This document shows positions 1,611 to 52,260 of a stretch of DNA of 64,000 nucleotides, piece by piece (the first letter of the stretch is position 1; every line of letters starts with the position of its first letter). A program made the translations under genes and the position numbers. This DNA is from Hydnum rufescens UP504. Lineage: Eukaryota; Basidiomycota; Agaricomycetes; Cantharellales; Hydnaceae. The stretch lies in assembly GCA_014904985.1 (NCBI GenBank), contig MU129085.1:31157-95156 (forward strand), written 5' to 3'. The notes below the pieces were generated by a model, which worked only from the letters and a program-made list of their open reading frames with translations, did no database searches and was not told where the DNA came from.

Positions 1611-1690
1611 CGTAATAATAGTAGTAGTAATAATAATAAATAATAATAATAATAAATAGTAACAAACAATAGTAAATAAACAAATAATCT
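1611..1690. repeat. (TAA)n microsatellite
   Basis: Imperfect TAA/AAT tract with AGTA interruptions. A very similar tract with the same continuation lies at 5915-5971, right after the end of fold-back element FB1. Confidence 0.8.
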
Positions 1691-1847
1691 AGCACAGCCA
1701 TGGATTGGCCGATAGATGGCCAAAAAAACTGAATTGGAATGGCTTGATTTTGGCCGAAAGGTCTGGGGGACCTCTTAGTACCATTTTCTGCCCCGAAAGT
1801 GGTACCTAAATTAGTCCCCTATGTGACTGACCAGCCTGGTTTACGTT
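1691..1847 (+). repeat. 155-bp dispersed repeat, copy 1
   Basis: The sequence from CTAGCACAGCCATGGATTGG to GTGACTGACCAGCCTG recurs in the same orientation at 5972-6124 with about 90 percent identity by eye. Similarity stops at the same place in both copies (...GACCAGCCTG), so this is a real element end or recombination boundary. It contains the inverted words GGTACC and GGGGACC. A coding function is not evident. Confidence 0.8.
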
Positions 1848-2675: not shown

Positions 2676-4130
2676 ATATACATATTACACTATATACATA
2701 TTATCCCCCCCCCCCTGGGGTTTGCCACCACAGGGGGGGGCATAGTTCATGCAGGCCATGCACCTGCATATACCCACCACACCCGCCGCAGTGGGTGGGG
2801 TCCATATGCCCCGGTCAGGGTCGGTTCCATTTGGGCGCTCCCTTGAAGGGGTTGGTCTTCATTTGTGGGGCTTCGTTCACGGTAATTGTTTGCCGCGTCT
2901 CGTTCAGCGGGTTCTGCTTGGGGGCTCACAGGGGTTCTGGTTCAGAATCTAGAGAAATAAATGATGAAATGTTAGTAGAACAGCAATGCAGCGCAAAAAG
3001 AGCAGCCTATGCTGCTCTTTTTGCGCCACAAGAATAAGAAATAAAAAAAATAAAAGAGACACACCTTTGTAGTACCCCACACCCGCTGTGGGAGTATGGG
3101 GTACTGGGACCGTGTACTCCAGGTCATCTGTATGACCGGTCGTACGGGTCTTCTCTGTGCCCCGTCGTTCGGGCGTTGATAAGTGGGGTTGCAGGGGGTT
3201 TTGCGTCGGTATTCGTTTGCAAAGAGACTCGAGACCTAGACGATACGACTTTTAAATTAGTTAAAAATTAAAGAACACGCAAAAAGAGCTGCTTTCGCTG
3301 CTCTTTTTGCATGGCTGTAGGTAGTGGGGGGGAGGAACTCACCTGATATGGAACCACACACCCACTGTGGCGGGTGTGTGATTCCTGGCGCGTCATTTGA
3401 CGCGGTGCCGTATATCGCATCGTTGGGTTGCTGTGTCGCATTCCTGTGCATCATGCTGCCATGTCGCGTTGCCGTGCGTCGCGCTGTGGTTGCGTTGCCG
3501 TACACTGTGCTGCCATGTCATGTTGCCGTACGTTGCGCTGCCATGTCACGTTCCCATGCGTTGCGCTGCCATGTCACATTCCCGTTTGGGCTCTTGTTGT
3601 GAGGCCTCAATCTATAATAAATAAAGGCGGGGTAGTAAAAAATTCCAAAGCAGTGCAAAAAGAGCAGCTTTCGCTGCTCTTTTTGTGCCATTGTATCTAC
3701 TAAAAAAAATACTCACCTTGTGACCACACACCCGCAGAGACGGGTGCGTGGTCGTGCGGTTGCCTTTTCGGGTGGTTGCTTGTTGTGGTTGCGGAGATGG
3801 AAGCAAGATGCAGATTCAACACCGGCAATTGCCGATACTCAAGAAGCGCCCAAGCGCTGGTGCTGCAAGCACAGTACACAATAGTACCAAGCATGTAAAT
3901 TATAAATAAATACTATATAATAAAAAATTGTCCAGGAAAACCCGAAGAAGCAGGATGGTAATGAGTCAGAGCGTCAATAAGGCATGAGATGGCTAATTAC
4001 AGAGTGGATTGGGCCACTTCTATGCATCAGAATTGGCCCAAATTTGAATATAGTAGTGTTATATATATGCTCTGCATGGGCAATTGATTATCTCGGACGC
4101 ATAATCACATTTTCAATTTTTCACGCCTTC
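2676..4130 (-). repeat. FB1 left arm: three intron-like cassettes
   Basis: Read on the minus strand, each cassette is a low-complexity 'exon', a GTGTGTGG-type hairpin and an intron-like segment. Intron-like segments are 3612-3716 (105 nt), 3236-3342 (107 nt) and 2949-3064 (116 nt). Each starts GTGAGT or GTGTGT and ends in a pyrimidine tract plus TAG. Clear CTAAT or CTAAC branch words are seen in the outer two. Each holds the hairpin GCAAAAAGAGCAGC..GCTGCTCTTTTTGC (3653-3688, 3279-3310, 2991-3026). The 'exons' are 13- and 15-base minisatellites, e.g. GCCATGTCACGTT alternating with GCCGTACGTTGCGCT at about 3440-3590. They match right-arm cassettes one, three and four. Confidence 0.8.
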
Positions 4131-4144
4131 AATTCCCTATTTAG

Positions 4145-5914
4145 GGAATTGAAGGTGTGAAAATTGAAAAATGCGATTATCGTCCGAGATAATCAATCTG
4201 CCCATGTAGGGTGTATATATACCATTACTATATTTAACTTTGGGCCAATTCAGATGTGTAGAAGTGGCCTAATCCACTCTGCAATTAGCCATCTCATGCC
4301 TTATTGGCTCTGACTCATTATCATTGGCTTCTTCGGGTTTTCCTGGGCAGATATTTATTATATAGTATTTATCTTAAATATACATGCTTGTTACTATTGT
4401 GTACTGTGTTTGCAGTGCCAGCGCTTGGGCGCTTCTTGAGTATCGGCAATTGCCAGCGTTGAATCTACATCTTGTTTCCCATCTCCGCAACCACAACAAG
4501 CAGCTGCCTGAAAAGGCAAGCGCACAACCACGCACCCGCCGCTGCAGGTGTGTGGTCACAAGGTGAGTGTTTTGTCTAGTAGATACAACGGCGCAAAAAG
4601 AGCAGCAAAAGCTGCTCTTTTTGTGCTCCTTTGACTCTTTATACTAACATTTCCTGTATTATTCTAGATTGAAGCCTGAGGTCCAAGGCATGACAAAAAC
4701 CCACAAAATGAGGACCCAGACGGCAGCGCGCCAAACAAAGATGCGCAAACGACGTGACACACGGCAACACGCCACACGAAGACGCACCACACACAGACAT
4801 GCCAAATGATGCACCCCACGGCAACATGCCAAATGAGGGCCCCAGGAACCACACACCCGCTGCGGCAGGTGTGTGGTACTACATAAGGTGAGTCCCCGAC
4901 CCCCAGTAAATACAACCGCGCAAAAAGAGCAGCGAAAGCTGCTCTTTTTGTGCTGCTTTCGAACTTTTTACTAATGTGTCTTTTATTATTCTAGCTGTGC
5001 CTTCATCCAACGCACGATGTACCCACGAAACGACCAGAACCCAAACGCCAACATGACATGCCAACGTGACCCGCCAATGCGACCTGCCAATGTGACATGC
5101 CAACATGACACAGCAACGCAACACACCAACGCAACACGACACACCCACACACCAATGACATGACATGCAGTGCCGCGCCAAACGAGGACGCGACCACACC
5201 AAATGAGGATGAAACCACGCCCAATGCAGGCCCCAGAAATCACACACCCGCCCCGGCAGGTGTGTGGTCCTATATAAGGTGAGTCCCCGTCCCCCCCTGT
5301 AGCTACACCCACACAAAAAGAGCAGCCAAAGCTGCTCTTTTTGCATGGTGTTTAACTCTTAACTAATTTAAAACTCTTATCCTTTAGGTCTTGACTTCCC
5401 TTGCAAATGAATACCAACGCGAGCCCCCCCTGCAACCCCATTTATCAATGCCCGAACAACGGAGCACAGAGAGGACCCATATGTACGACCCAGAGTATAC
5501 GGCCCCAGTACCCCACACTCCCACAGTGGGTGTGGGGTACTACAAAGTATGTTTTCTTTTTTATTTTCACTTCTTGTTCTTGTGGTGCAAAAAGAGCAGC
5601 ATAAGCTGCTCTTTTTGCGCTGCATTACTGTTCTACTAATGTTTCATCAATTATTTCTTTAGGTCCTGAACCAGAACCCCCGCGAACCCCCAAATACGAA
5701 CCCGCCGAATGAGATGCCGCAAATGATAACCGCGAACGAGCCCCCACAAACGAAAACCGACTCCCTCGAGGGAGTGCCCAAAGGGAACCAGCCCCTGACC
5801 GGGGGTGTATGGGTATGGGCAGATGCGGGTGCATAACCCGCATGAACCATCCGCCCCCTGTGGTGGCAGACCCCCAGGGGGGGGGGTAATATGTATATAG
5901 TGTAATATGTATAT
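4145..5914 (+). repeat. FB1 right arm: four intron-like cassettes
   Basis: Plus-strand intron-like segments are 4563-4667 (105 nt), 4888-4994 (107 nt), 5279-5387 (109 nt) and 5547-5662 (116 nt). Donors are GTGAGT three times and GTATGT once. Branch-site words are ACTAAC, ACTAATG, ACTAAT and CTACTAATG, and each ends TCTAG or TTTAG. Each includes the A-type hairpin (4591-4626, 4919-4953, 5313-5344, 5586-5620). Each donor lies about 8-13 bases after a B-type hairpin of the form CCACACACCCGC..GCAGGTGTGTGG. Segments between introns are 13-15 base minisatellites rich in CCAA, ACG and ACATG. I see no conserved reading frame across cassettes. Confidence 0.8.
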
Positions 5915-5971
5915 AATAATAGTAGTAATAATAATAATAAATAGTAAACAAATAATAATAAATAAGTATAT

Positions 5972-6124
5972 AATCTAGCACAGCCATGGATTGGCTGACA
6001 GATGGCCCAAAAACTGAATTGGAATGGCCTGATTTCGGCCGTAAGGTTTGGGGGACCTATTAGGTACCATTTTCTGCCCTGAAAGTGGTACCTAAATTAG
6101 GTCCCCTATGTGACTGACCAGCCT
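5972..6124 (+). repeat. 155-bp dispersed repeat, copy 2
   Basis: Direct copy of 1691-1847, separated from the FB1 right end only by a (TAA)n tract. Its right end (GTGACTGACCAGCCTG) runs straight into the open frame of the next gene. That frame has a stop upstream inside the repeat and no in-frame ATG near its start. Confidence 0.8.
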
Positions 6125-7989
6125 GATGATGATCATAGTGATGAAGACAGCGAGGATGGAGATGATACTGCAGACATACAACATCGAAGGCGCAAATTCT
6201 GGAATGACGAAATCGACGAAGTTGTAGAAATGTTCCACCAGTTTGAAGAGACGAAAGTTAAACCATGTGCCCAGCGCCTGGGTTGTACCGTCACACGCTT
6301 GATGAGAATTGGGAAATGGTCGCTGAATACGAGTGAGCGCCGACAGCGTGGGAATCCTTGGAATGCATACCTCAACCTTCTCAAAGGTTCGTGATCTTGA
6401 TGTCACAATTTCCCTTCATTTCTCATTCTGATCTCTGGAACATAGAGAAAGATGAGTTTGTGTCAAAGTCAGAAGCGCACAACTTGTATGCAAAACTCAA
6501 AAACGATATGGGCGGCAGTGATACTGAAGCCTGGGCGGCAGAGATGGAGCGTTTGACGTCTGAACTTTGTGGGAGGAAGACTGCGGTAGGAAAGAAGAAA
6601 GGAGAATCAGGAGGGGATGTGGCGAAGCTCATGGAACAGACACAGCACCGATGGAATGCGGATGGCAAAACTTTGCTGAACACTGGCATCCATACCTTCT
6701 ACATGATGGTCTCCAATATGGTGTCTTCATCGGCTGCTCATAGTCGGAATACCTCCTCTATGAACTCACCCCAAATGGAATTGTGGTACAAGTCTCACTT
6801 TGACCCCACCCAGCACATTGGTGACGTCTACAAATACATTCTTGCTCAGCAACTATGGTCAAAGGAGGTTGAGGCTTTGGAAGAAGGAGAGTCACACCGG
6901 TGGCGTATAATGGAAACACAAGACATGCACCATACGAAAGCTGTTTGTGCACAGAGAATGTGCAAGCTCCTGGGCCCCTATATGCCGGCGAAGGTCAAAG
7001 TAATGAAGTGGATGGAGATACCAAAGTTGTTGAGGCTTAATTGACTTCAGTTGGAGGGGCTTCCTACTGTGGATGAATTCCCACTCTTAGGGAGTTGGAT
7101 AGCCGATAAGTACCGAACGTCCCACTGGAACAAGATGTATGAGGCCTTTACTTGTCCTGAAGATCGTCGGATCCACCTAGAAGAACTCCCAGAGTCTCCT
7201 CTCGACTCTGATGAGTCCATGTTGCCGGTCATGATTGATCACCGTGGGCAAGTCCAGCATACCATCAGGAGTGTAGATCATGCTAGAGCTTCGAACAACT
7301 GGTCTGGGGGTGCCACGCTGGGGGGAGAAGGAATCAACAGTCCAGTTCTGGATGAAGTCCGGGAGGAGAATGTGGAGAGCACAATGGGGAAACGGAAGTA
7401 TAGTGAATTGGGTAGAAGTCGGGACTCTACAGGAATTGGGCCTGGTCATGCAGCTGAGGATGCTGGGGAGCGTGACAGTGATGTAGAGGAGGATGAGAGG
7501 CCAGTGAGAAGGAGAAGGAAGTTACAACTCCCAAGAAGATCGACATCTACAATTCCAGACAAACTCGACAAGTCGCCAACTCCTCTTTCTCCCAACTCGC
7601 TCATCCATGCTCAGGCTAACCAGAGCCCTCCACCTTTTCTCGCAACAACTTCTGCATCAAGCCATGTGGGAGCCACAGTACCTTTGGTCAACAGCCGGGT
7701 CGCGCAACTACATAGGATGCCAACATATTCGATGAACTCAGGGGCCTTGACACCCTTGGATAATTTCCCTACGTCTACGTCTCCACCTATACAAGTTCTT
7801 AGGGATAGCTCAGCATCATCATCTTCCACTCCCAACTCTGGTCCTGACATGATGAGCACTCACCCGAATGGACCCTCGCAGGCCTCATTTTCACTGCCCA
7901 GTGCGCAGGTTCATCTCAGTGCTGCAGACTTTGACACACTTCAAATGAGCTTTGCTACTTGGGCAGGAAATGGTGCTGGGCTCTTGTAG
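6110..7989 (+). CDS. Hypothetical three-exon protein, 5' end probably cut by a repeat
   Basis: The predicted exons are about 6110-6384, 6447-6999 and 7049-7989. The second intron (GTAATG...TTCAG, with CTTAAT as branch word) is 49 nt and phase 0; the first (GTTCGT...ATAG) is less certain. The joined product would be about 590 residues. It has an acidic N-terminus, a helical charged first half, and a long S/T/P/N-rich C-terminal half with a basic cluster (RPVRRRRK near 7500), which may be a nuclear localisation signal. I do not recognise the family. A helical domain with a disordered tail fits a DNA-associated protein or a transposon accessory protein, but this is inference. No ATG precedes the acidic start: the frame is open from the border of the 155-bp repeat, so the native start is missing or lies in an unseen exon. 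CpG content is normal. Confidence 0.55.
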
Positions 7990-15640: not shown

Positions 15641-15926
15641 TCATTTGTTATTATTATACTATTATACATGTATCATAGAGCTTATCCCCCCTCCCTCCTG
15701 GGGTTGCATGTTTATATTTGGCAGGGTTGTGGGTTTTTGTTCAGCAGGGTCGCAGGACTAGTTGGGGGTAGGTGCGAGCAGTGAGGTCAGAAGAATACCT
15801 AGAATAGTACATTAGTGGAAAAAAGAAAAGCCATGCAAAAGGAGCAGCCTGTGCTGCTCCTTTTGCGCAATCTTACATATAGCCTGAGGACTTACCATAA
15901 AAAATCACCACACCCACCGAAGTGGT
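15640..15926 (-). repeat. Outlying FB2 cassette and terminal repeat
   Basis: A TAT-rich tract and CCCCCCTCCCTCCTGGGG (about 15685) resemble the FB1 terminal repeat. Next comes a minus-strand intron-like segment, 15799-15895 (97 nt). It has donor GGTAAGT, branch CTAATG and acceptor TTCTAG, with the hairpin GCAAAAGGAGCAGC..GCTGCTCCTTTTGC at 15835-15867. The B-type hairpin ACCACACCCACC..GGTGGTGTGG follows at 15906-15930. The cassette 'exon' is cut at about 15927 by the LTR-like copy. Confidence 0.65.
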
Positions 15927-15927
15927 G

Positions 15928-17138
15928 TGGAAGATAAAAACATCCAGTATCAGAAAATGCGAATATCCATTGATCCCAGCCATTGGAATGATCATGTGAC
16001 CTATTACAAAATCAATTATGGCTACGCGCAGAAATCGAATTCGTTCTATAACTCCGTCAGTTTTGATTGGAGAGGTACGCCCATATAACTCTCGGAAAGC
16101 CACGATTCATACCTTTCGAATGGTACCAAACACAAGTCGAACGGACCAGAAATGCACTCTCCAGACCAATATTACTGTCAAAATCCGGGATTTTCAGTAA
16201 AAAACGAATTTCTCCGTCAGTTCGTATCCAATCCTCTCGAAACAACCGCGCCTGGAAAGATATAAAAAATCCGCATCCAACGGTACTGAGCACGCGAAGA
16301 ACAGATCAAAACTGAACTCTACAGAACAATATTACTATCAGAATCAACACCCATCAGTAAAAAACGAATTTCTCTGTCAGTTTACACCGGATCTGCTCGA
16401 AACCGCCGCGCCCAGAAAGCTGTTAAAAATCCGCATCGAATGATACCAAGAACGTCTATTACGGATGCAAACTGTTGTTTCTGCATCAAATCCCATCCCA
16501 TGCACTTGTCCCCATTATCAACCAGCAACAAAAACATCTTAACCACTGGACTACAAACAAATTAATCTCTAAGAACTCGGAAATATCCTTTGATTTCATC
16601 TCCCATTGCCACAAATAACTTCTAGAACCTCACAGATAAGAAAGATAACACTCCCTTGACTACCCTTTTGTTCTGTTTATGAATGACTCACCCCCCTTAC
16701 AACCACTTTATGAAAGATATCACCTTCTTAGCAACCCTTTTGTTCTGTTCATGAATGACTCACCTATCTTGCAACCACTTTATGAATGACTCACCTATCA
16801 TGCAACCACTTTATGAATGACTCACCCTCCTTGACAACCCTATTGTTCTCACATATGACTCACCTAGGAGTGAGTCATATTCTTTAAACACAGCCACCTT
16901 CAGAAAGGTATAAAAGCTGGTAGATTTTCCTGTATCCCCCCATCATCTTCTCACTACTGGAATATACTACTGTCTACAAATCTGCTTGCATCTTAAGAGA
17001 GTACTGATCTAAAGCCATCTGGAGCTAAGTCATATACAAGGATTGTTAAGACTAAGTCACTGGAAGCCCTCTACGCGAAATACTGAGCCAAGGATAGTTG
17101 CAGGACCTAAGGTTAGAGTTGCTGGACATCCAAGGAAA
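15928..17138 (+). mobile_element. LTR-like retroelement 5' region, plus-strand copy
   Basis: This 1.2 kb block recurs in inverted orientation at 22160-23296. It contains a repeated enhancer-like region, a TATA box (TATAAAAG, 16909-16916) and, at its 3' end (about 17050-17138), a short gag stretch equivalent to VAGPKVRVAGHP in the other copy. Similarity to the other copy ends at ...CCAAGG (17137), where GGTGAGT follows. I interpret it as an LTR plus the first gag codons of a Ty3/gypsy element. LTR ends (TG..CA) were not identified with certainty. Confidence 0.6.
16684..16916 (+). promoter_or_regulatory. LTR promoter: six TGACTCA sites and a TATA box
   Basis: TGACTCA occurs at 16684, 16756, 16787, 16818 and 16856, and in reverse (TGAGTCA) at 16871. 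The middle sites sit in a roughly 31-base tandem unit with ATGAATGACTCACC and TTGCAACCAC. TATAAAAG follows at 16909. TGACTCA is the consensus for Gcn4/AP-1 type bZIP factors, so amino-acid-starvation or stress control is plausible (inference). The inverted copy near 22430-22520 retains some sites. Confidence 0.6.
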
Positions 17139-17490
17139 GGTGAGTAAAAACAAAGTAAAGTCAGAAGAAGAAAGAAACACATTGACATACTAAATCAAGC
17201 TTAAACTAGTCTAGAGTCCTCTTTAGAATCCGCATTTTGACCAGGAGGACACAAATAGGTACCACAAATAGCAGTAAACAGTTCAATACAACACATATAA
17301 GCCTTTCACAAGCATCCCACGATATATCATTGACTATAGCTAGTCCATACCACAATCTCATCCTCCACTGAATACCATACCTAACTTGTTAGAGAGTGAT
17401 CAACCATCAGAGCAAACCAGCCCATTGAATAAAAACAGAAATACAGTCTCCCATCTACACACTGGCTGAACCAGAGTTTGATTTGACAGT
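17139..17490. other. No supported gene
   Basis: AT-rich stretch after the gag fragment. It starts with a donor-like GGTGAGT and has no long frame on either strand. Confidence 0.4.
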
Positions 17491-19190
17491 CATCGGAGCT
17501 CCCAATCCTTCTTCTATAGCAGGTGTGGCTCATGTGGGTTCTCGGCATTGCATCATTTCGTGTCTTCATTGGGCGGTGGTTTTGTTATCTGGGTGGGCCT
17601 TGTTCAGCGCAGGGTTTTGGGCAGGTCATTGTTCGTGGGTTTGGTGGTCTCTGTTTGGCCATTCATTCTCATTCGGCGGCCCTTCATTTTGTTGGTGGAG
17701 GTTCAGGCGATAACCTAAAAAAATCAAGTGTTAGTTAGACGTTAAAACCGGCGCAAAAAGAGCAGCCTTCGCTGCTCTTTTTGCACCACTGTATGTATAG
17801 ACATTAAAAACAAATTCACCTTAAATTATCACACACCTGCCACAGCAGGTGTGTGGTTAGGGTGGTCTCTCATTAGGCGGGTGCCTGTTCAGTGCATTAT
17901 TGTTTGGCGGGGGCTCATTGGGCAGGTGTTTGTTTGGCGGGCGTTCATTCAGCAGTTGTCTATTCGGTAGATTGTTGTTTGGGAGGGGGCTCATGTGTTC
18001 ATTCGGCGGGTTCTGGTTCAGGCAATATCCTAGAAAAATCAATAATATGTTAGTTAAAATAATAACCAGTGCAAAAAGAGCAGCATTTGCTGCTCTTTTT
18101 GCGTGGTTGCGTACACTACTTACCTTATATATATTACCCCATGCACCCCGCAATGTGTGTGTGGGTTTTTTGTATGGCGGGCCTCTGTTTGGCAGTCTGG
18201 GTTTGGCGGGTTTTGGTTGGGCAGGTGTTCACATGTTGGGGTTTGGTCCGGCAGGCAGTGTTTGTACAGCAGGTTTTTGTATGGCAGGTTTTTGTATGGT
18301 GGGTTTTTGTACAGCGGGTTTTTGTATGGCGGGTTTTTGTATGGCAGGTTTTCGTACGGCGGGTGTTGATTTGGCAGGTTTGGGGTTGCAGGGTTTGGCT
18401 CAGCAGATTTGGGGTCAGGGGTTCATGTGTTTGAGTTCAAGATCTAAAAAAAATCGATAATGTTAGTTAAACTATTACAACATGGCAAGAAGAGCAGCTT
18501 ACGCTGCTCTTCTTGCACCACAAAACAAAAATAAATTTAAAAAAAAACTCATCTTGTAGCACCACACACCCACCATGGCAGGTGTGTGGCACCTCATCTT
18601 GCACCATGGCTACACACCATTGTTCACATGGCTCTTCATGAGGGTAGTCCCCATGTATAATTGGTCCGGTGTAAATAGATGGGGCTGCGGGGGGTTTTGC
18701 GTTGGTATTCGCATGAAAGATGAAAACCTAGAGTTAAAAATAAGTGTCAGTTAAGAAGTAAAAGCAGTGCAAAAAGAGCAGCTTTCACTGCTCTTTTTGT
18801 GCTGTTGTAGCTACTAGAAAGAAACTCACCTAGTGACCACACACCTGCAGTGGTGGGTGTGTGGTCGTCTGTTTCCTTTTCTGGGTGGTTTGCTTGCGAG
18901 AAAGAACGCAACTCAACACCGGGAATTGCCGGTATCCAAAAAGTGCTCAAGTGCCGTATGAATTAGTAGCAAGTAAATGAATGTAGAATAAATAATATAC
19001 AATCAATATTTGCCCAAAAAAATAAAGAAGACCAAGAAAATCAGTCAGAGTCCAATAAGGCATGATATGCTACATTGCAAAGTGGATTGGGCAATTTCTA
19101 CTGTTCAGAATCAGTCCTAATTTGAATATATTGTTCATATGTATGTATCCTACATGGGCGATTAATTATTTCGGATGTTCTCTTTATTTT
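17490..19190 (-). repeat. FB2 left arm: four intron-like cassettes
   Basis: A-type hairpins lie at 17751-17786, 18070-18102, 18484-18517 and 18768-18802. The best intron-like segment is 18728-18829 (102 nt): donor GGTGAGT, acceptor CTCTAG, branch-like CTGAC. B-type hairpins lie at 17828-17856, 18560-18590 and 18836-18866. The minisatellite 'exon' at 18170-18400 has 15-base units (GGCGGGTTTTTGTAT and variants). The 'exons' at 17870-18010 and 18170-18400 read on the minus strand as N-P-P-N-E/K/R-like pentapeptides. Confidence 0.75.
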
Positions 19191-19234
19191 TCTATTTTTT
19201 CACACCTTCAATTCCCTATTTAGGGAATTGAAGG

Positions 19235-21010
19235 TGTGAAAAATAGAAAAATCGAGAGAATGTCCGAGATAATTAATCGCCCATGTAGGATACATACATA
19301 TGAACAATATATTCAAATTAGGACCGATTCTGAACAGTAGAAATTGCCCAATCCACTTTGCAATGTAGCATATCATGCCTTATTGGACTCTGACTGATTT
19401 TCTTGGTCTTCTTTATTTTTTTGGGCAAATATTGATTGTATATTATTTATTCTACATTCATTTACTTGCTACTAATTCATACGGCACTCATGGCATCAGG
19501 CACTTGAGCACTTTTTGGATACCGGCAATTCCCAGTGTTGAGTTGCACTCTTTCTTGCAACTCGTTACCACCACCCAACAAGGCAGCCACCCAGATAAGA
19601 CATGACCACACACCCGCCGCTGCGGGCGTGTGGTCACTAGGTGAGTTCTTTTTTTTCATTAGTAGATACAATGGCACAAAAAGAGCAGCAAAAGCTGCTC
19701 TTTTTGCGCTGCTTTGAATCGTTTACTAGCATATCTTTCATTATTTTCAGGCACAGTGACAACTCACCAAATGAGGCCCCAAACAGCAACAGGACAGATG
19801 GTAACACCAGACGATGTGACAGATGGCAACGCGCCAAACGACAACGCAATAGACAACAATGCCCAATGAGTGGCCCAAGGAACCACACACCCGCTGCAGC
19901 GGGTGTGTGGTGCTATATAAGGTGAGCTCCCCCTCAAGTAGATACACCGCACAAAAAGAGCAGTGAAAGCTGCTCTTTTTGTGCTGGTTTTAATTTCTAA
20001 CTAAAGTATCAATTTTTTAGGTTATTGACTGACCTACAACCAACAAAACAAAGAAAACAACAAATGGAATGGACACCGCCACATGAAGACCTGCCATATG
20101 AACCCCAAGCCCCCTGAAACGATGGCCCACACCACATGAATATGCGCCAGATGGTAACCCATGCGCCAAAGGCTACACAGCAAATGAACACCGCACAGGC
20201 GAAGGACCGCCCACGAAAGACATGAAACAATGCAGAGCCAACGAGTGCCCCATGAACCACACACCCACTGCGGCAGGTGTGTGGTATTCCAAGATGAGTT
20301 TTTATTTTATTTTATATTTATTTTTGTGGTGCAAGAAGAGCAGTGTAAGCTGCTCTTCTTGCGATGCTTTAATGTTTAACTAACACACTTATTTTTCTAG
20401 ATCTTGGACTTGAACCCTGCATGAACCCCCAACACCAACCCCATGACCCGAAACCCTGCGACCTGAAACCCACGACATGAAGCCCCACGACCCCAAACTG
20501 TGACCCGAAGCCCTGCAACCCCAAACCCACCAAACGAAGGCCACCAAGCCAAACCCATGAACGAAACCGCGGAACGGGGTCCTCCAAGTGGAACCCTGGC
20601 CAACAACAGACATATGAACCACACCCGCTGGAGCGGGTGTGTTCATTTCAGGGTTGTTTGTTTGAGTTTCTATGTGACAGCAGCGCAAAAAGAGCAGCGA
20701 AGGCTGCTCTTTTTGCACTGCCTTGAGTTGTAGCTAGCATGCCATATATTGTAGGCCAGAAGCTGACCCCAACCCCATACAACCCCCATCCCCAAACCTG
20801 GTGAGCAACAACCCGGCAAACGAAACCCTGGCGAGCGATGACCTGACAAACGAAACACTGGTGGGTGAGTAACACATAGGAACCACACCCGCTGCAGTGG
20901 GTGTGGTGGTGTAAGGGTTTTTTTTATTGTAGTAGATACAGTTGCACAGAAGGAGCAGCCCTGCCTGCTCTTTCTGTGTTACTGAGGGTGGGCCATTCGG
21001 CCACTGAATG
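19235..21010 (+). repeat. FB2 right arm: five intron-like cassettes
   Basis: A-type hairpins lie at 19674-19710, 19949-19984, 20330-20362, 20683-20718 and 20944-20978. Clear intron-like segments are 19641-19750 (110 nt; GTGAGT..TTCAG) and 19922-20020 (99 nt; GTGAGC, CTAACTAAAG, TTTTAG). The third has ATGAGT where a GTGAGT donor is expected (about 20294), and its acceptor TTCTAG is intact at 20400. The last two are degraded. B-type hairpins lie at 19604-19634, 19882-19912, 20254-20284, 20617-20645 and 20882-20910. Confidence 0.75.
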
Positions 21011-21600: not shown

Positions 21601-22215
21601 ACATGGATTGCAATTGGGTCATGATCAGCCTGGCTGGTTAACAGGAGGTTTTGGCTTGTGTTGGCCGCACAGAGGCACATCAACATACATTCAATTTTTT
21701 AGGATGTTGATTGGTTCTATCTCCATTGGGGTTATGATGATAATCAGGTTTGTTTGTCTTAGCAGCTGGTGCAGATATAAAGGGGCCTGCTGCTATCGCA
21801 TATGAGTGTGTTGTGAAGGGAGAGCATCCATTTTTGTCAACAATACTGATTGCTCCAGTGGTTCATTGATGGGAAGATTCCTCTCTGATCCTTTTGATGT
21901 CATCTACAATGGCTTGTTTGATTCCTCCTTTTCCTGCTATTCCTCATGGTAATTGGGTGTCATCCATCTTCAAAAGTCTTCCTTTGATAGAGTACTTAAT
22001 GATGCCCTGTCGAACCATAGCCTGAGCATCTGGGCAGTTCTTCATTCCAATGTTATGTGCTCCAGTCTTGTCACAGAACCAACAGAGAGTTGCACCAGCA
22101 GACATGTTGGGACCTTGGGTATGATTAGATCCGAGTGGCTGGTTGTTTGGATAGGTAGCTGGCCTTGGGTGTCCAGCAACTCTAACCTTAGGTCCTGCAA
22201 CTATCCTTGGCTTTA
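21601..22215 (-). pseudogene. Ty3/gypsy gag fragment with zinc knuckle
   Basis: A minus-strand frame encodes a basic linker (KPRIVAGPKVRVAGHPRP) and then a CCHC-type knuckle, C-W-F-C-D-K-T-G-A-H...C (22029-22083). A helical tail follows (AMVRQGIIKYSIKGRLL). Gag knuckles bind element RNA during packaging. The spacing C-x2-C-x5-H-x6-C is slightly longer than the usual C-x2-C-x4-H-x4-C. The frame breaks near 21950. It directly follows the LTR-like block on the same strand and stops at about 21605. The pol remnant on the same strand starts at about 15310, so one element may have been split by a 6.3 kb insertion. Confidence 0.65.
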
Positions 22216-23296
22216 GTGATTTTGCTAGAGGGCTACCAGTGGCTTTGTCTCAACAACCTTGAAGATGACTTAGCTCCAGATGGCTTATAGATAGACTGTT
22301 CTTTAGAGGCAAGCAGAAAAGTTGACAGTGGTTGACAGTGATGATTTCCAGAGAGGAGATGATTTGTGTCGGATACAGGAAACTACCAGCTTTTATACCT
22401 TTCTGAAGGTGGCTGTGTTTAAGAAATATGACTCCCTCATGGGTGAGTCATAGGTGAGAACAAAAGAAAAATAACAAGATGATGTAATAATGCCGTCATA
22501 GCTGAGTCATGCATAAGGAGAACAAAAGGAATCATGAGGGTGATGTCATAGTGATGTCATTCATAAAGAGAACAAAAGGAATCATGAAGAGGGGGTGATG
22601 TCACCAATTTGCAAGCATGTGGAATGCTTGGAGCATTGGTCACTGACCATGTGGAGCATTCTGGAGGCAAAATGAAAGGATATCTCTGGTTTTGGAGATT
22701 TATTTGAGCATAGTCCAATGGTTAAGGTGTTTTTTGCTGGTTGATAATGGGGACAAGTGCATGGATGGGATTGATGCAGAAACAGCAGTTTGCATCCGTA
22801 ATAGACGTTCTTGGTATCATTAGATGCGGATTTTTGACAGCTTTTCAGGGCGCGGTGGTTCCGAGAAGAACAGTGTAAACTGACAGAGAAATTCGTTTTT
22901 TACTGATGGGTGTTGATTCTGATAGTAATATCATTTGTAGAGTTCAGTTTTGATCTGTTCTTCATGTGCTTAGTACCGTTGATGCCAACTTTTTATATCC
23001 TTCTAGGCGCATTGTTCCGAGGGGATTGAATGCGAACTGAGGGAGAAATTTGTTTTTTACTGGAAATCCGGATTTTGGTAGTAAAATTGGCCTGGAGAGT
23101 GCAGTTTGGTCCGTTCGACTTGTGTTTGGTACCGTTTGAAAGGTGTGAATTGTAGCTTTCTAAGCATTATATGGGTGTACCTCTCCGATCAAAACTGACA
23201 GGATTATAGAATGAATTGATTTCTGCACATAGCCGTAATTAATTTCGTAATTGGTCATGTGATTGTCCAAAGGCTGGAAGTGTTGATTTCGCATTT
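22160..23296 (-). mobile_element. LTR-like retroelement 5' region, minus-strand copy
   Basis: Inverted copy of 15928-17138, about 80-85 percent similar by eye, with many CpG to TpG/CpA differences. The TATA box (TATAAAAG in reverse complement) lies near 22394 and TGAGTCA-type sites at about 22444 and 22505. It leads directly into the gag fragment. A tRNA-like A-box (AATGGTTAAGGTG, near 22708) lies within it. Confidence 0.6.
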
Positions 23297-23309
23297 TCTG
23301 ATACTGGAT

Positions 23310-23584
23310 GTTTTATCATGCACACCATGCAGACTGACCCACTTGGGGACACCATTGCCATCTTCACACTCAAACCCAAGCTGGCATCTCATCAGGCATG
23401 TCCCCACAGGCTTGCAGCAGCTCCGAGGCATGAGCCTTGGAGGCGAGGATGGCCAGTATGTTGCCACAGTGGGCTTGCAGGTGGAGGCATCGCAGTGTTC
23501 AGGTGCATGGGATGGGTGCAGATCTCAAACTCCTGGCATGCTATGATGGAGTGGGCTTGGAGAAAGTCTCTAGCTTTGCATGGA
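23310..23584 (+). pseudogene. Lactonase 3' fragment, CpG-depleted copy
   Basis: The stretch matches the last 270 bases of the lactonase at 44065-44316 (TDPLGDTIAIF, then LQQLRG.SLGGEDGQYVA and a final FAWT-stop). Differences are dominated by CG to TG or CA changes, plus frameshifts near 23400 and 23480. Only the last blades of the propeller are present, so it is a dead fragment. Confidence 0.75.
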
Positions 23585-24285: not shown

Positions 24286-24990
24286 TAGGAGGATCCGGAA
24301 GGTTATGGAAGACGGCGGAAGGCTCTGGAAGGTTGGAGGCTGTGTGCAGGAAATAGTATTTATAGCCCTTCGCAGTTGGGGGATCACCAGTTTTGATCTC
24401 TCAGGATTCCCACTGCGATAGGTGCGAGACTTGTGTGTCCCTTGTTGTGTGGTGTATACTCAGGATTCCCACTGCAATAGCATGTGGTTAATTAATCTCT
24501 TCCCTCTTTCTGTTTGTGGCTTTGACGGCAGTGTCGCCCTGACAATGAAGACACCAACAAAACCCCACACATGAACGCAACCCCAAACCAAACCTGCCAA
24601 ATGGAGACCCCACAACCTCAAACCTGCCAAATGAAGACCCACCAAGCTAAACCCACAAGCCCAAACCCACCAAATGAAGACCTGCCAAGCCAACCCCCCC
24701 CCCCCCACACACAAAGGTAAGCATTTTTTTTCTCTAGCTACAATTGCACAAGAAGAGCAGCCTCTGGCTGTTCTTCTTGGGTGCATGGGTGAGCCTACAG
24801 ATGTATATAATAATATAATAATAATAAATGAATAAATAAATAATAATGCATATTAATATGGCAGGGGCCCCTTGATTGTATTGCTGGGGCCCCCAGGGGC
24901 CCCCTCATGTAAACATCTAGTTAGATGCAATTAATGCAATGCCCATCATATCTAATATGATGTGGAAAAGTGACTGACCAGGCTGGATAT
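24286..24990. mobile_element. Insertion with a fold-back arm remnant
   Basis: This stretch separates two proteasome fragments. It holds GGAAGG-type short repeats (24287-24345), a single cassette-like arm (24500-24783) with an A-type hairpin (GCACAAGAAGAGCAGC..GCTGTTCTTCTTGG, 24746-24783) and a CCAAAYGAAGACC-like minisatellite exon, a (TAA)n tract (24806-24850) and a GGGGCCCC fragment (24865-24905). Confidence 0.6.
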
Positions 24991-26432: not shown

Positions 26433-28166
26433 TCAAAAAAGGGGAACATTATGAACTGAAGGTGAATGGTATTTAAATGTTACAACTCCCTGAAACCACA
26501 GATAGCTTCTCCTTCTCCAGTACTTCATGACACTGTGCCCACTCCCTGCCACACTTGAGGGCTGAAAATCAATCTGGGTGGTATTTGGGTTTCCTATGGC
26601 ATAGCAGTGAGGGTGCCCAAGGGATGCATGGTATGCAGCAGGGACCCAAAGAATAAGCTCATCACTTGGTCCCAAAATCCACCCATCCTCAACTTGAAAT
26701 GGGGATGGGGGCAATGGAAATAGGTGAGTGGGATATGAGGGGCTATGTTCGGGTTGTGCAGGAAGCAACCATGAAATTTTGGCATTGAATGGTATGAAGG
26801 ATGAAGCAATGCAGTTGCCATCATGAAAGAAAGTAATGGACCAGATGCCATTACCATGTCCTGGACTTGGCTGGCCAATAGATGCCCCTGTCTCCACATT
26901 CCACAGTTGGATGGTCTTGTCTGAGGAGCTAGAAGCAATCTGTTTCCCATCAGGTGAGAAAGCAATGGACCAGACAGGAGCATGCCCCCCCATTGACTGC
27001 CAAATGCTTGCACCTGTCTCCACATTCCAGAGTTGTATGGTGCTGTCCCAGGAGCCAGAAGCAATTTTCTTGCCATCAGGTGAGAAAGAAATGGACCCAA
27101 CTCCATTGTCATGCCCCTTCATTGGCTGGCCAATGCTCACACCTATCTCTGCATTCCAGAGTTGTATGGTCTTATCCTGTGAGCCAGAAGCAATCTTCTT
27201 GCCATCAGGTGAGAAAGCAATGGAATAGATGGTATTATCATGCCCCTCATTAGCCTACCAATGCTGGCACCTGGCTCCACATTCCAGAGTTGTATGATCC
27301 CATCCTGGGAGCCAGAAGCAATCTGCTCGCCATCAGGTGAGAAACCAATGGACCGGATGTGCCCACCATGCCCCTTCATTGGCCAGCCAATACTTGCACC
27401 AGTCTCCACATTCCAAAGTTGTATGGCTCTGGCTGAGGAGCTGGAAACAATTTTCTTGCCATCAGGTGAGAAAGCAATGGATGAGATGGCACCATCCCCA
27501 TCCTGTCCCTTCATTGGCTGACCAATGCTGGCACCTGTCTCCATATTCCAGAGTTGTATGGTTCCATCCTTGGCACCAGAAGCCACCCACTTTCCATCAG
27601 GTGAGAAAGCAACAGACTCAATGTTGTCATGATGCCCTCTGATTGGTTCACCAATGCCCACATTCATTCCCACATTCCAAAGTTGTACAGTTGCATCATA
27701 GGAGCCAGAGGCAATCTTCTGGCCATCAGGTGAGAAAGCAATGGATGTGATGAAGTTCTTGTGCCCCATCATTGGCTGACCAATGCTGGCACCTGTCTCC
27801 ACATTCCAGAGTTGTATGGTCCAGTCTGAGGAGGCAGAAGCAATCTGCTTCCCATCAGGAGATAATGCAGTGGCTGTGCTGTACCTGGCATGCATTCCCA
27901 TTGGCTGCCTGATGTTTTCACCTGTCTCCACACTCCAGAGTTGTAGGATTCTGTCTTCAGAGCCAGAAGCAATGTGCTTGCCATCAGATGAGAAAGCAAG
28001 TGACAAGATGTCACTATCATGCCCCTTCATTGGCTGACCAATTCTGGCACCTATTCCCACATTCCAGAGTTGTATGGTCTTGTCATCAGAGCCAGAAGCA
28101 ATCTGCTTCCCATCAGGTGAGAAAGCAAAATCTGGCACCAGAACCACACACTTGCCATCAGGTGAG
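26433..28166 (-). pseudogene. 5'-truncated WD40 copy of the NWD gene
   Basis: The minus strand encodes ten recognisable WD40 repeats plus the degenerate C-terminal blade and the tail motif GWILG..ELI.WVP. It is a near copy of the last part of the NWD gene at 29433-34721. The NACHT half is absent: homology ends at about 28166, where proteasome alpha-4 sequence starts. A frameshift near 27235 splits the reading frame. The adjacent plus-strand proteasome 3' fragment has the same spacing as at 29190/29433, so the two are one tandemly duplicated unit of about 3 kb. Confidence 0.85.
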
Positions 28167-28169
28167 AAC

Positions 28170-29190
28170 GCAACGAGATAGGTGAGCAGGCATTCCCATA
28201 TTAATACATCTTACATCCTCGCTCAGGGCTTCTCTACCAGAGTATGCACCATGATCCTATAGGTGGATTTCTCCCAAATTACAATTGATTTGTGACCCCC
28301 TAGTCGAGTATGCCATGGAGGCAATTTCACATGGGGAGCCATAATGGGTGTCCTGGAAAGGACAGCATCATTCTGGCAGTAGAAAGTTACCAGGAAATTG
28401 TCAGATGTTTCCATTGCCAAAGAAGGTGGATATGGCTGTAGTGGTGAGAACATCTTTCTTCTAAATAAGTGGGCCAACCACTTTTTCCTGGTTTATCCAG
28501 ACCCACTGAAACCCCATTCTCTGTCCAGTAACATTGTGGCCGGCATGGCAGGTCTCACTGCAGATGCCAACTCTCTCATCAATTACACACAATAAGCTGC
28601 TCAAAGCCATCTTTTCTCTTTCAATGAAGATATCCTAGTAGAACGCTTGCCCAACAGTTGTGCAATTTGAAGCAGGGCTACACTCAATATGGGGTCAGTC
28701 ATTCATGCCCACTTCTGTACCAATTCCACCTTCTCACTTTGCTTTGCACATCCCTTCATCCACCACTAGGTCTTTGTCCATTTTGGCTTATCACTCTGAT
28801 GTGCAAGTTACAATCCACACTACCAATTCCAGCTGAGCCCCTTGGATCTATCAGGGAATTACAGTGGGTGGAAGTGACATGCATTGATGTGAATAATCTC
28901 AAGCAGGAATGCAAGGATAGCTTGTCCATGGAAGAAGCTATCACTCTCATGATAAATATTATGAGCAAGACCATGGATTCCACCACACTCAGCATCAGGA
29001 AATGTATGCACTTCATTACCCATGATATGATATCCTTTGTCTAACATTTGCATTGTGTTCTTGCTGTTCAGTGGAATTCTTGATTCTCACACTTGGTCCA
29101 ATGACAAAACAACTGCTTGCAAAGATATACAAGTGAGCAGAGATTGATGCATTGTTGGCTATGCATGGGATTGAGAACATGGCAAGCTGA
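28170..29190 (+). pseudogene. Proteasome alpha-4 fragment, copy B
   Basis: Starts inside the gene at a GTGAGCAGGCATTCCC segment shared with 23725. It continues through VEYAMEAISH (28312), GVLER, the AKEGGYGCSGENIFLLNKW block, GMAGLTADANSLINY (28545), KQGYTQYG, and finally the LTLGPMTKQLLAKIY tail to about 29190. It is more continuous than copy A but has many frameshifts. The promoter, start and first exon are missing, since the WD40 copy abuts it on the left. Confidence 0.8.
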
Positions 29191-29432
29191 AACAGTGTAC
29201 AATATTTTATTTTATCTTTCCTTTTGTGAAATGAAAGAAGCTTGCTTTTATGAGGTATTACAGCTCTGACATTTGTCCTAGTATCTGGCTATAGTGAATA
29301 TGTTCACAGCTGATGAAACAAACAAGAGATGAGTAAAACAGTATTTGGTGGTTGTTTCAAAAAAGGGGGAAATTATCAACTGAATGTGAATGGTATTTAA
29401 ATGTTGCAACTTCCTGAAACCACAAATATCTT

Positions 29433-32400
29433 CTACTTCTCCACTTCTTGACACTCTGCCCACTCCCTGCCACACTTGAGGGGCCGAAAATCAATCTGGG
29501 TGGTATTTGGGTTTCCTATGGCATGGCGGTGAGGGTGCTCAAGGGATGCATGGTAGGCAGGAGGGACCCAAATAATAAGCTCATGACCAAGTCCCAAAAT
29601 CCACCCATCCCCAAGTTGAAATGGGGATGGGGGCAATGGAAATAGGTGAGTGGGGTATGAGGGGTTGTGTTTGGGTTGTGCAGGCAGCAACCATGAAATT
29701 GTGGCTCTGGGATTTTGAAAGGATGAAGCAATGCAGTTGCCATCATGAAAGAAAGTAATGGACCAGATGCCATTACCATGCCCTGGACTTGGTGGGCCAA
29801 TCGATGCCCCTGTCTCCACATTCCACAGTTGGATGGTCTTGTCTGAGGAGCTGGAAGCAATCTGTTTCCCATCAGGTGAGAAAGCAATGGACCAGACAGG
29901 AGCATGCCCCTTCATTGGCTGCCCAATGCTTTCACCTGTCTCCACATTCCAGAGTTGTATGGTCCTGTCCCAGGAGCCAGAAGCAATTTTCTTGCCATCA
30001 GGTGAGAAAGCAATAGACTTGACTCCACCAGCATGCCCCTTCATTGGCTGGCCAATGCTCACACCTGTCTCTGCATTCCAGAGTTGTATGGTCTTATCCC
30101 CTGAGCCAGAAGCAATTTTCTTGCCATCAGGTGAGAAAGCAATGGCATGGGTGGCATTATTATGCCCCTTCATTAGCCTATCAATGCTGGCACCTGGCTC
30201 CACATTCCAGAGTTGTATGAGCCCATCCTGGGAGCCAGAAGCAATCTGCTTGCCATCAGGTGAGAAACCAATGGACCAGATGTGCCCATCATACCCCTTC
30301 ATTGGCCAGCCAATACTTGCACCAGTCTCCACATTCCAAAGTTGTATGGTTCTGGCTGAGGAGCTGGAAGCAATTTTCTTGCCATCAGGTGAGAAAGCAA
30401 TGTTGTAGATGCCACCATCCTGCCCCTTCATTGGCTGGCCAGTACTGGCACCTGTCTCCACATTCCAGAGTTGTATGGTTCCATCCCTGGCACCAGAAGC
30501 CACACACTTGCCATCAGGTGAGAAAGCAACAGACTTAATGTTGTCATGATGCCTTCTGATTGGTTCACCAATGTCCACATCCATTCCCACATTCCAAAGT
30601 TGTACAGTTGCATCATGGCAGCCAGAGGCAATCTTCTGGCCATCAGGGGAGAAAGTGATGGATGTGATGAGGTTCTTGTGCCCCATCATTGGCTGACCAA
30701 TGCTGGCACCTGTCTCCACATTCCAGAGTTGTATGGTCCGGTCTGAGGAGCCAGAAGCAATCTGCTTCCCATCAGGAGATAATGCAGTGGCTGTGCTGTA
30801 CCTGGCATGCTGTCCCATTGGCTGCCTGATGTTTGCACCTGTCTCCACACTCCAGAGTTGTAGGATTTTGTCTTCAGAGCCAGAAGCAATGTACTTGCCA
30901 TCAGGTGAGAAAGCAAGTGAGAAGATGGCACCATCATGTCCCTTCATTGGCTGACCAATGCTGGCACCTGTTCCCACATTCCAGAGTTGTATGGTCTTGT
31001 CATGAGAGCCAGAAGCAATGTGCTTGCCATCAGGTGAGAAAGCAAGTGACAAGATGGCATCATCATGCCCCATCATTGGCTGACCAATGCTGGCACCTGT
31101 TTCTACATTCCAGAGTTTTATGGTCTTGTCATGAGAGCCAGAAGCAATCTGCTTCCCATCAGGTGAGAAAGCAATGGATGAGATGGCTTCCTTGTGCCCC
31201 TTCATTGGCTGACCAATGCTCACACCTGTCTCTACATTCCACAGTTGGATGGTCCTGTCCCAAGAGCCAGAAGCAATCTGCTTCCCATCAGGTGAGAAGG
31301 CAATGCACTGGATGCGAGCATCATGCCCCTTCATTGGCTGGCCAATGCTCACACCTGTCTCTGCATTCCAGAGTCTGATGGTCATGTCTGCAGAGCCAGA
31401 AGCAATCTGATTCCCATCAGGTGAGAAAGCAACAGATTCAGACAGCACCATGATGTCCCTTCTAAGATCAGCACAATATTTGGCCAATCCTGAAGTTGTC
31501 CCTGAGTAAGTTTGGCAACTCTGGGAAATTGTCCCTTCCACCTCTGATATAGGAGGGATGATGTGGGAGCAAATGTCAGACCAGAGAGGTAGATGTGAGG
31601 TGCACTTGTTGAGATGGCAGTTGCAAACATGGAGATGAATTGCTTTGCATCATGGTGCAGCTCAACAAGGTCCACAGACATCTGGGAAATCCATGTTAAG
31701 AATCAGCTCACAGCCTCAGCATCTGATGGAATTGTAGTCATGCTTACATGAGAGGTGCTAAGCAAGGCTAAGGCACTTTGGGGGGAGCTCTGTGTGAGAC
31801 TCATCACTTCCAACCAGGGCAAGAAGTCCTTCTTAAAGAATGACACCATGTCTTTCTGAGCAACCTTGCCCATAGATGTTGCAGACACATGGAAAGCCCA
31901 GAATCGACAAGCATAAGACAGATGGTCGGAGATGTGTTTCTTGCAAAGACCAGTAATGTCAGGGATGTCAACATTGCGAAGGAATGACGTCGGAAGTTGA
32001 CAGATATTGAATGTCAAGATCTGGTCCATAATGCGGAAGCATCGCCAGGGCCATGTCCTGATTTGCTTCATCTTGGTCGATACAGAAATCTTTGTTATCC
32101 TCCGGGTTACACAAGAAATCCCGATAAGACGAGTGGAGGGCCACAATTGGCTCATGGTCACTGTGTGTACCGCTAAGGAGCGAGCCAAGATGCTTCACAA
32201 TTCGTCGCTGCATCTCCACGTCGTCCGGAGTGAGAATAGAGTCAGGCGGAACGAGGTGCACAAGGACAAGTAATGATAAAGGCTCCTGAGTGCATATGAT
32301 CCGGCCTAGGATTGACTTCACTTGGTTTACTGCTATCTCATCCGATGGATTGCACTGCTGTTTCATGACGGCACTATACAGCCCATACAACCCCTTATCA

Positions 32401-51200: not shown

Positions 51201-52153
51201 GAACTAAGTGTGCATTTCCAAGGAAATTGCATGGATGGAAGGCTCTGGGGAGGAAATTGTTGTTTAGGGGGGAGGCCTGTGGAGTACTGCCTAAATGGAG
51301 TCCAGTTGGGCTGATATCTGGTATGTACACTCCCCATATATGTATTAACTCAGTGGTGTAATATAAGAGCCACCCCTGCTGTACATCTTATGTAATTCAC
51401 TTTTGATCTTTTCCCCCCTCCCCCTCAATTTCAGCTACTTCCACACATCCAATTCATTATATTTTTGGATATAGTCAGGGATATACTATTATGAGCCTAT
51501 TCCACCTATTTTGGGTGTAATTTGAAGTGTTTAACATTCATGGTAGCTTGTTGTTCTCTTTTTGCCTGAAAAGGGAGTTCATTCCCTTAAAGTGCATGGA
51601 TTGGGCTGATTTTTGGCACATGGTTAGGAAATTATATTGTCTAAGTTTTTGCCAATTTTAAAGTCTCTAGCTATTCTGCAAAGGGAGGAAATAAATTATC
51701 AATGTCCAGACTTGTTTGCCTTATATCTCCATAACCCCTGGACCAATTTGGCTGAAATTTTGATATAATCTGTGTAGAAATATTTTCTAATGATGTACCA
51801 AATTTCAGAATGGTCTGCTCACCCCTTGTTTGGATGTACTTTATCCAATTTCTGCATTTAGGCTTTTTTAAATAGGAATCACTGTATTATGTAATGAGAA
51901 ATGATCCAAAGTTATTATGCAGTATTATCTAATCTACCCTATTATATGGGTCTATCTAGTTACCGCATTTAGGCTTTTTCATAGCAGCAGGTGGCTTGCC
52001 TTTGAAACTGGGCAATTGCCGGCGTTGAGTCCCAGGTTCAATTTACCGGCAATTGCCGGAAAGTTTTCGTTTCGCGCGACACCACCACCACCATCTACCG
52101 AGAGCCCAGGAGCAGTCACCACACCCCAGTATAGACTGGGGTGTGGTGCTTAG

Positions 52154-52260
52154 GTATGTTGCTATTTTTATAGCTACTTTAGTGCAAAAAGAGCAGCCTC
52201 TGGCTACTCTTTTTGCACTCCTCTTGATTTTTTCACTAACCCGCCATCTTCCCATTATAG
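52154..52260 (+). other. FB3 intron-like cassette
   Basis: 107 nt: donor GGTATGTTG, A-type hairpin GTGCAAAAAGAGCAGC..GGCTACTCTTTTTGCAC, branch site CACTAACCC, and acceptor CCCATTATAG. It is preceded by the B-type hairpin ACCACACCCCAGTATAGACTGGGGTGTGGT (described here in two halves: ACCACACCCCAG and CTGGGGTGTGGT). All four splice signals fit fungal consensus, the best match in the window. Confidence 0.75.

Follow-up and report, generated by a model that had tools for sequence, protein, structure and literature searches.

A fold-back transposon family of Hydnum rufescens with arms built from serial intron-like cassettes

We analysed a stretch of 64,000 nucleotides from the basidiomycete Hydnum rufescens UP504 (the window; C177:31157-95156 of a 63.2-Mb assembly). 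Positions without a contig label are those of the window. It contains FB1 (2676..6125), a fold-back transposon copy without a recognisable left terminus, delimited by its arms and by the homology of other copies. Read directly, FB1 consists of inverted-repeat arms around a central palindrome (3814..4464, inverted-repeat search) that is common to the copies on C32, C205, C150, C423, C16 and C14b and to FB2, another copy in the window. By eye, TATA- and CCAAT-like words can be found in this palindrome, and we infer that it is a divergent promoter. On the right, a preliminary description of the locus had placed the end of FB1 at 5914, which is too early: homology with other copies stops only at 6125, in the terminal repeat CAGGCTGGTCAGTCA (6111..6125, minus strand; repeat pattern search) that forms the right end of the element. 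The AT-rich segment before it (5915..6110), recognised by homology and word search, holds AATAAA-like words and the terminal GGTACC region; positions 5923-6126 are 99% identical to C150. A left terminus was looked for and not found, nor was a target duplication: ATGATGAT, the 8 bases after the right terminus, is absent to the left of FB1.

The arms are made of seven cassettes of one order, all pointing away from the centre: a B hairpin, a donor, an A hairpin, usually a CTAAY branch site, and TAG. In the right arm (plus strand) they contain introns R1 (4563..4667, 105 nt, GTGAGT..CTAAC..TAG), R2 (4888..4994, 107 nt), R3 (5279..5387, 109 nt) and R4 (5547..5662, 116 nt, GTATGT donor); in the left arm (minus strand), L1 (3612..3716, 105 nt), L2 (3236..3342, 107 nt) and L3 (2949..3064, 116 nt, GTGTGT donor), all ends being read directly. 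Donors are GTGAGT in five cases, GTATGT and GTGTGT in one each, and the acceptor is TAG in 7/7. CTAAY is present in six cassettes; L1 has no strict version and only TACTACC at the branch position. One A hairpin lies at 4597..4620 (plus strand) and the others at 2997, 3283, 3659, 4924, 5317 and 5591; one B hairpin, directly before its donor, lies at 4845..4879 (plus strand) and the others near 3071, 3350, 3720, 4524, 5236 and 5507. A 24-nt A-hairpin pattern, with up to three mismatches, gave 17 matches in the window (seven in FB1, 10 in FB2) versus 0 in 100 shuffles. Both the fold-back architecture with arms of serial intron-like cassettes and the seven FB1 cassettes with their hairpins, donors and acceptors, as first described, are therefore borne out.

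This cassette architecture recurs genome-wide and is more extensive than first claimed. An exact search found the A hairpin 2,349 times, versus 0 for the pattern read backwards. A genome-wide hairpin search with splice signals scored against controls had been proposed at the outset. In such a search, GTRAGT lies 12-42 nt upstream of AAAAAGAGCAGC, the A half, at 785 + 805 = 1,590 places, and the permuted control word GTRGAT at 4 + 10 = 14. From the window and 24 loci, with overlapping loci omitted or de-duplicated, we collected 140 distinct cassettes (three more, near stretch ends, were dropped); 137 were oriented by the B hairpin alone, splice words being left unused, and three have no B hairpin. 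Across these 137 cassettes, the donor word is found in 115 sense versus 4 antisense, the branch word CTAAY in 107 versus 6, and the acceptor YAG, a short word and weak alone, in 129 versus 71. Donor, branch and acceptor occur together in 93 of the 137 in sense and in 0 in antisense.

GTRWGT donors within 25 nt of the B stem are present in 98 of the 137 cassettes (GTGAGT 55, GTAAGT 29, GTATGT 13, GTGTGT 1), with TAG as acceptor in 94 and CAG in 4. The corresponding introns measure 79-119 nt (mean 104.6), so that the range of 105-116 nt originally given is right for FB1 and too narrow beyond it. Likewise, the distance from B hairpin to donor, put at 8-13 bases, is 6-15 nt and mostly 7-11. In ten arms from several copies, AAG before the donor ends most exons and TTATTCTAG-like tracts precede the next exon, both being U2-type signals. 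An actin-family host gene follows the same grammar in one clean 55-nt intron (GTGAGC..CTAAT..TAG), and two of its other inter-exon gaps look similar by eye. A GT donor, a branch site and an AG acceptor in order, in host-like sequence, thus characterise 93/137 cassettes as U2-type introns. Judging from these sequences, the introns are likely spliced.

Cassettes also keep their direction within the elements. Counting those within 2.5 kb of one of 13 identified centres, 97 of 101 point outward and 4 inward, in agreement with the outward orientation described for FB1; two of the four exceptions, on C2, lie beyond the terminal repeat at C2:156790 and hence belong to a neighbouring element. Long inverted arms built of repeats form most of the element, as in fold-back transposons. 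The arms of an element need not mirror each other: different cassette types occupy the two arms of C32, C205, C150 and C423.

Because all cassettes are homologous, we compared rates of change in disjoint pairs of related cassettes: 63 pairs, in which a motif was counted when present in at least one member, after removal of pairs with more than 98.5% or less than 62% identity. Donor sites changed in 14/289 cases (rate 0.048) and acceptor sites in 6/174 (0.034), about 2.4 and 3.4 times below the other intron sites outside the hairpin (394/3,406; 0.116). None of 2,000 resamples, taken from intron stretches of equal width, fell to either value; the resamples use all 63 pairs, the motif is in register in 49 (donor) and 60 (acceptor), and expectations scaled for in-register pairs are about 33 changes versus the 14 found for donors and about 20 versus 6 for acceptors. 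Motifs are displaced between pair members in the case of 2 donors, 4 branch words and 4 acceptors. Rates of 0.15-0.16 for exons, 0.09 for the B hairpin and 0.044 for the A hairpin come from an earlier, biased version with 51 pairs, where the motif was required in the reference member, a condition that biases motif rates downwards; we rely on the 63-pair version. By these comparisons the slow parts are donors, acceptors and the A hairpin, and the fast ones are the exons. The proposal that splice words outlast their neighbours as the exons diverge thus holds, in the sampled pairs, for donor and acceptor, and is not clearly borne out for the branch word.

The hairpins on either side of the donor may have a role in RNA. 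Folded as RNA, 4840-4996 yields z = -6.46 and a centroid formed by the A and B hairpins. Loops of A hairpins are 4 nt long in 120/137 cassettes and of the GNRA type in 44 in sense versus 1 in antisense; G.U mismatches, which pair in sense RNA, number 106 in A stems and 90 in B stems, versus 44 and 52 for A.C mismatches, which pair only in antisense (related copies being included repeatedly in these counts). Such strand biases lean towards an RNA role. Known RNA families gave 15 matches at E <= 1, all under the gathering scores and 10 of them on the central palindrome. Alternatively, the A and B palindromes could be DNA sites for a transposase or other dimeric protein, comparable to the subterminal repeats of other DNA transposons in being repeated along the arms, with the splice-like words as unused relics of an ancestral unit. 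Such sites would account for the slow change of the A hairpin (0.044) and for its form, a dyad with a mostly fixed 4-nt spacer (120/137), and arrays of short repeats would suit fold-back arms; however, a DNA dyad does not require a one-strand bias of loops and wobble pairs, donor and acceptor are conserved separately, and the splice words are still tied to the sense orientation despite much exon divergence. We consider this explanation unlikely.

What the exons might encode is less consistent than their borders. In ten arms spliced in silico, with outer ends set arbitrarily, no consistent open reading frame was found: the longest with an ATG has 80-210 aa, varies from copy to copy and changes frame. 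Two spliced reading frames gave no Pfam match over the cut-off. The transposon might nevertheless carry, as its arms, fragments of a repeat-rich, multi-exon gene that once encoded a protein, the introns being the gene's own. Exon 1 (4384-4515 and its homologues in both arms) points that way, with an ATG followed by 27 open codons in 24 of 28 distinct copies and changes by codon position of 70, 99 and 126, a mild third-position excess; its start possibly yields a short peptide. Exon 3 lengths are also all 2 mod 3 in five FB1-type right arms. Against a gene fragment speak the short, copy-specific and frame-shifting reading frames and the missing Pfam matches of two of them, as well as exon lengths of 1, 1, 0, 1, 1 mod 3 for exon 2 (five arms) and 1, 0, 1, 0 mod 3 for exon 4 (four arms), and we find this origin quite improbable.

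The cassettes travel on a DNA transposon that ends in a 15-bp terminal repeat and duplicates 8 bp of its target. Neither these duplications nor the link to KDZ transposons set out below figured in the preliminary description. C32, C205 and C150 (which has an insertion) share both boundaries, with ends CACCTTGGTCAGTCA.. and ..TGACTGACCAGCCTG, and are flanked by the exact 8-bp duplications GAGAAGGT, GTGGAGCC and AATTGAGT, respectively. Such a duplication was found at 4/5 end pairs inspected, the fourth being C14b; for the C16 pair a matching one was not found. At C14:315113-328111, a 13-kb composite of several fold-back modules is flanked by one 8-bp duplication, GTTGTTGC, which implies that modules can move together. 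The terminal-repeat pattern CANNYTGGTCAGTCA has 363 forward and 366 reverse exact copies genome-wide, 729 in total and including the ends of relatives that carry a KDZ (Kyakuja-Dileera-Zisupton) transposase domain, versus 2 + 2 for a control. Given that an element has up to about ten hairpins and the genome 2,349, the copies should number in the hundreds. In the three full copies, AATAAA/ATTAAA words in outward sense are found 185-212 nt from the right end and 245-250 nt from the left end. Read in the simplest gene-like way, the whole would consist of a divergent promoter and, on either side of it, a serially spliced arm and a polyadenylation region.

An element that begins, at C5:442634, with the 15-bp terminal repeat has a KDZ domain 1.8 kb inward from there. 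Separate open reading frame pieces of this locus match KDZ (E = 2.4e-34), a C48 peptidase (3.1e-9) and CxC1 (1.1e-7), the CxC1 profile standing ahead of CxC2 in a neighbouring piece; between the C48 peptidase and KDZ there is a smaller repeat pair, so that the peptidase may or may not be part of the KDZ-carrying element. A short inverted pair starting CAGGCTGGTC, at about 4410-5540 of the stretch C5:442600-450600, is possibly a small relative nested in the KDZ-carrying element. With the terminal 296 bp of the C5 element as query, 41 matches were listed from 40 scored candidates out of 150. Nine of them, at seven loci (C5, C130, C109, C57, C157, C391 and C76), have a listed KDZ domain 1.6-3.1 kb inside, in all nine with its 3' end towards the terminus (lists compared by eye). 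Two other matches adjoin fold-back material: C4:85842 by A hairpins and C21:380624 by a core match. Genome-wide the KDZ domain is strongly expanded, with at least 154 matches (150 scored of 584 first-look candidates).

In the window, the homology-defined stretch 24717..24985 (plus strand) comprises the outermost cassette-like stretch, an AATAAA-rich stretch and the terminus of another copy; 24886-24987 is 84% identical over 104 bp to the terminus of the KDZ-carrying element and adjoins the cassette-like stretch 24717-24800, which has a GTAAGC donor, no CTAAY that we could see and no clear B hairpin. Since this cassette-bearing relative has about 100 bp of its terminus in common with KDZ elements, the family looks like a non-autonomous KDZ family. 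Terminal sequence is shared with KDZ-encoding elements by the FB2-type terminus; what ties the FB1-type terminus to them is the 15-bp repeat together with the 8-bp duplication. According to the sections of PMC12730594 on which we draw, Zisupton and the Dileera element Zisupton-1_PGr make 8-bp target duplications, and two Kyakuja families have 7-bp duplications and no terminal inverted repeats. The elements described here resemble fungal KDZ transposons in their 5'-CA..TG-3' ends, in their 8-bp duplications (PMC12730594) and in the FB2-type terminus, which in this genome also occurs on elements with a KDZ gene. They differ from them in arms that are serial introns and in that no transposase was found inside. 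In a search for an autonomous copy with serial introns, two 13-kb end pairs (C14, C16) showed no transposase recognisable by eye among open reading frames of at least 150 aa.

Overall, we assign a probability of about 0.6 to the reading that the family is a fold-back transposon of the non-autonomous KDZ kind, in which the two arms are divergent transcription units, mostly non-coding and serially spliced. Several results weigh against it. As regards mobilisation, no listed KDZ domain lies close to 32/41 listed terminus matches, what FB1-type termini (GGTACC) have in common with the KDZ element is limited to the 15-bp repeat, and by eye, among the KDZ matches listed, none of 40 scored FB1-type termini (of 673 candidates) has a KDZ domain less than 3 kb inside. 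Transposons of the hAT superfamily also make 8-bp target duplications and are present in this genome with 90 domain matches; of the 729 repeat places 100 were listed, and among these a check by eye showed no terminal-repeat pair enclosing a hAT transposase. As regards splicing, the branch word changed in 27/275 cases, with 145/2,000 resamples at or below this value, and is not clearly slower than its neighbours. The strand-bias counts do not represent independent events and have no known error. Many copies may not splice, as 39/137 cassettes have no GTRWGT within 25 nt of the B stem and FB2 is eroded. Finally, intron-less genomic copies, searched for with two exon-junction patterns at 2 and 3 mismatches, gave 0 matches; we list this here as well, noting that it neither supports nor excludes splicing and is in line with DNA-based spread.

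Among known systems, the fold-back (FB/TU-type) transposons of animals and plants have long inverted arms of tandem repeats, vary in arm length and are usually non-coding. All three traits recur here, the last seemingly; the difference is that the arm repeats are exon-intron units with conserved splice sites. In the open-licence literature, by titles and abstract openings and in searches of which several had other aims, we found no fold-back or KDZ element made of serial introns.

The cassettes could also be introners, that is mobile introns that insert into host genes as well and have filled fold-back arms by chance. The thousands of similar short introns in this single genome speak for it, and the large families of near-identical spliceosomal introns covered in the consulted part of PMC9860276 are a true likeness; there, some introner families have terminal repeats and target duplications, and the fungal ones described, from Pezizomycotina, are without either. 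Introners are single introns inserted in genes (PMC9860276, same part), whereas the mobile unit here is a whole element with many introns: terminal repeats and target duplications mark the element and not the intron. Of 50 A hairpins listed from C1-C4 (out of 2,349), all but two are, by spacing, clustered or near terminal repeats. The two exceptions were fetched: one sits among several FB2-like cassettes, the other is a lone hairpin without splice words, and neither could be assigned to an ordinary gene as an intron. Within this sample, then, the intron is not the inserted unit, and a chance filling of arms by introners is most improbable. At about position 2018 of C4:532000-536000, a lone A hairpin without splice words stands beside terminal-repeat-like remnants and is perhaps a decayed end. 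Symmetrical sister stwintrons of Hypoxylaceae, as presented in the part of PMC8469720 that we used, are propagating fungal introns with inverted-repeat symmetry, and are comparable in both respects; we saw no nested introns here, and the 8-bp duplications point instead to DNA transposition of a larger element.

Further cassettes in the window had been described in FB2 and FB3, and they exist. FB2 has 10 A hairpins around its centre at 19219 (15839..20973, A-hairpin pattern search) and is more decayed, since a strict intron caller accepted 1/5 hairpins in its right arm and 4/5 in its left. FB3 contributes the intron 52154..52260 (plus strand, GTATGT..TAG, 107 nt, ends read directly), and the stretch 24717-24800 discussed above adds to these. 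At 1616..1838, homology and a terminal repeat mark the right terminus of a further copy of FB1's family. The outer inverted repeats 15923-17518 and 22163-23327 were tried as the arms of FB2 and rejected, being a different repeat also present at about C5:448924-450568; probably they belong to another transposon nested around FB2. A window-wide scan meant as relaxed returned one candidate and missed known cassettes, and was not used. Near the FB3 cassette, 50313-51281 is a perfect palindrome with 482-nt arms and a 5-nt spacer; it is about 80% identical to part of a C16 stretch, which indicates another palindromic repeat family. Elsewhere, 26803-31432 and 56307-57733 are large open reading frames with long tandem arrays of WD40-like (by eye) and TPR repeats, in which blocks are duplicated.

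We propose the following scheme for the family, which is best filed as a non-autonomous fold-back family, probably KDZ-mobilised, with an unusual payload. A KDZ-type transposase supplied in trans would move its many copies. RNA polymerase II would start at the central palindrome and proceed outward along each arm, a tandem of exon-intron units from which the host spliceosome would remove introns of about 80-120 nt. Each donor would lie between two stable RNA hairpins, B at the exon end and A within the intron, and AATAAA-like words inside the terminal repeats would end the transcript. With arms that are inverted copies, outward transcription would give two RNAs of the same sense, so that double-stranded RNA would be avoided, and efficient splicing may keep the transcripts from being treated as aberrant. 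The preliminary description had suggested that splicing softens insertions into genes, and this is not supported: splicing would remove only the introns, and the exons, the other arm, the terminal repeats and the AATAAA-like words would all remain. More tentatively, the payload could be a spliced non-coding RNA, with selection preserving splicing itself rather than a protein and the serial introns serving the survival of the element; export, escape from RNA silencing and suppression of R-loops on the GC-rich arms may be the benefits.

The finding suggests that KDZ transposons have an extensive non-autonomous family associated with them. If its payload is indeed a spliced RNA, it would represent a class of selfish DNA that uses the spliceosome from within its own transcript. 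Should the introns be used, purifying selection would act on splicing in an element that apparently encodes nothing, and the value of splicing could be separated from the value of a protein. The genome would then offer a large set of natural replicate introns, in which one could examine whether transposon transcripts are protected against silencing by their introns, in what way donor-side hairpins influence the use of a splice site, and whether host genes can gain introns from such arrays.

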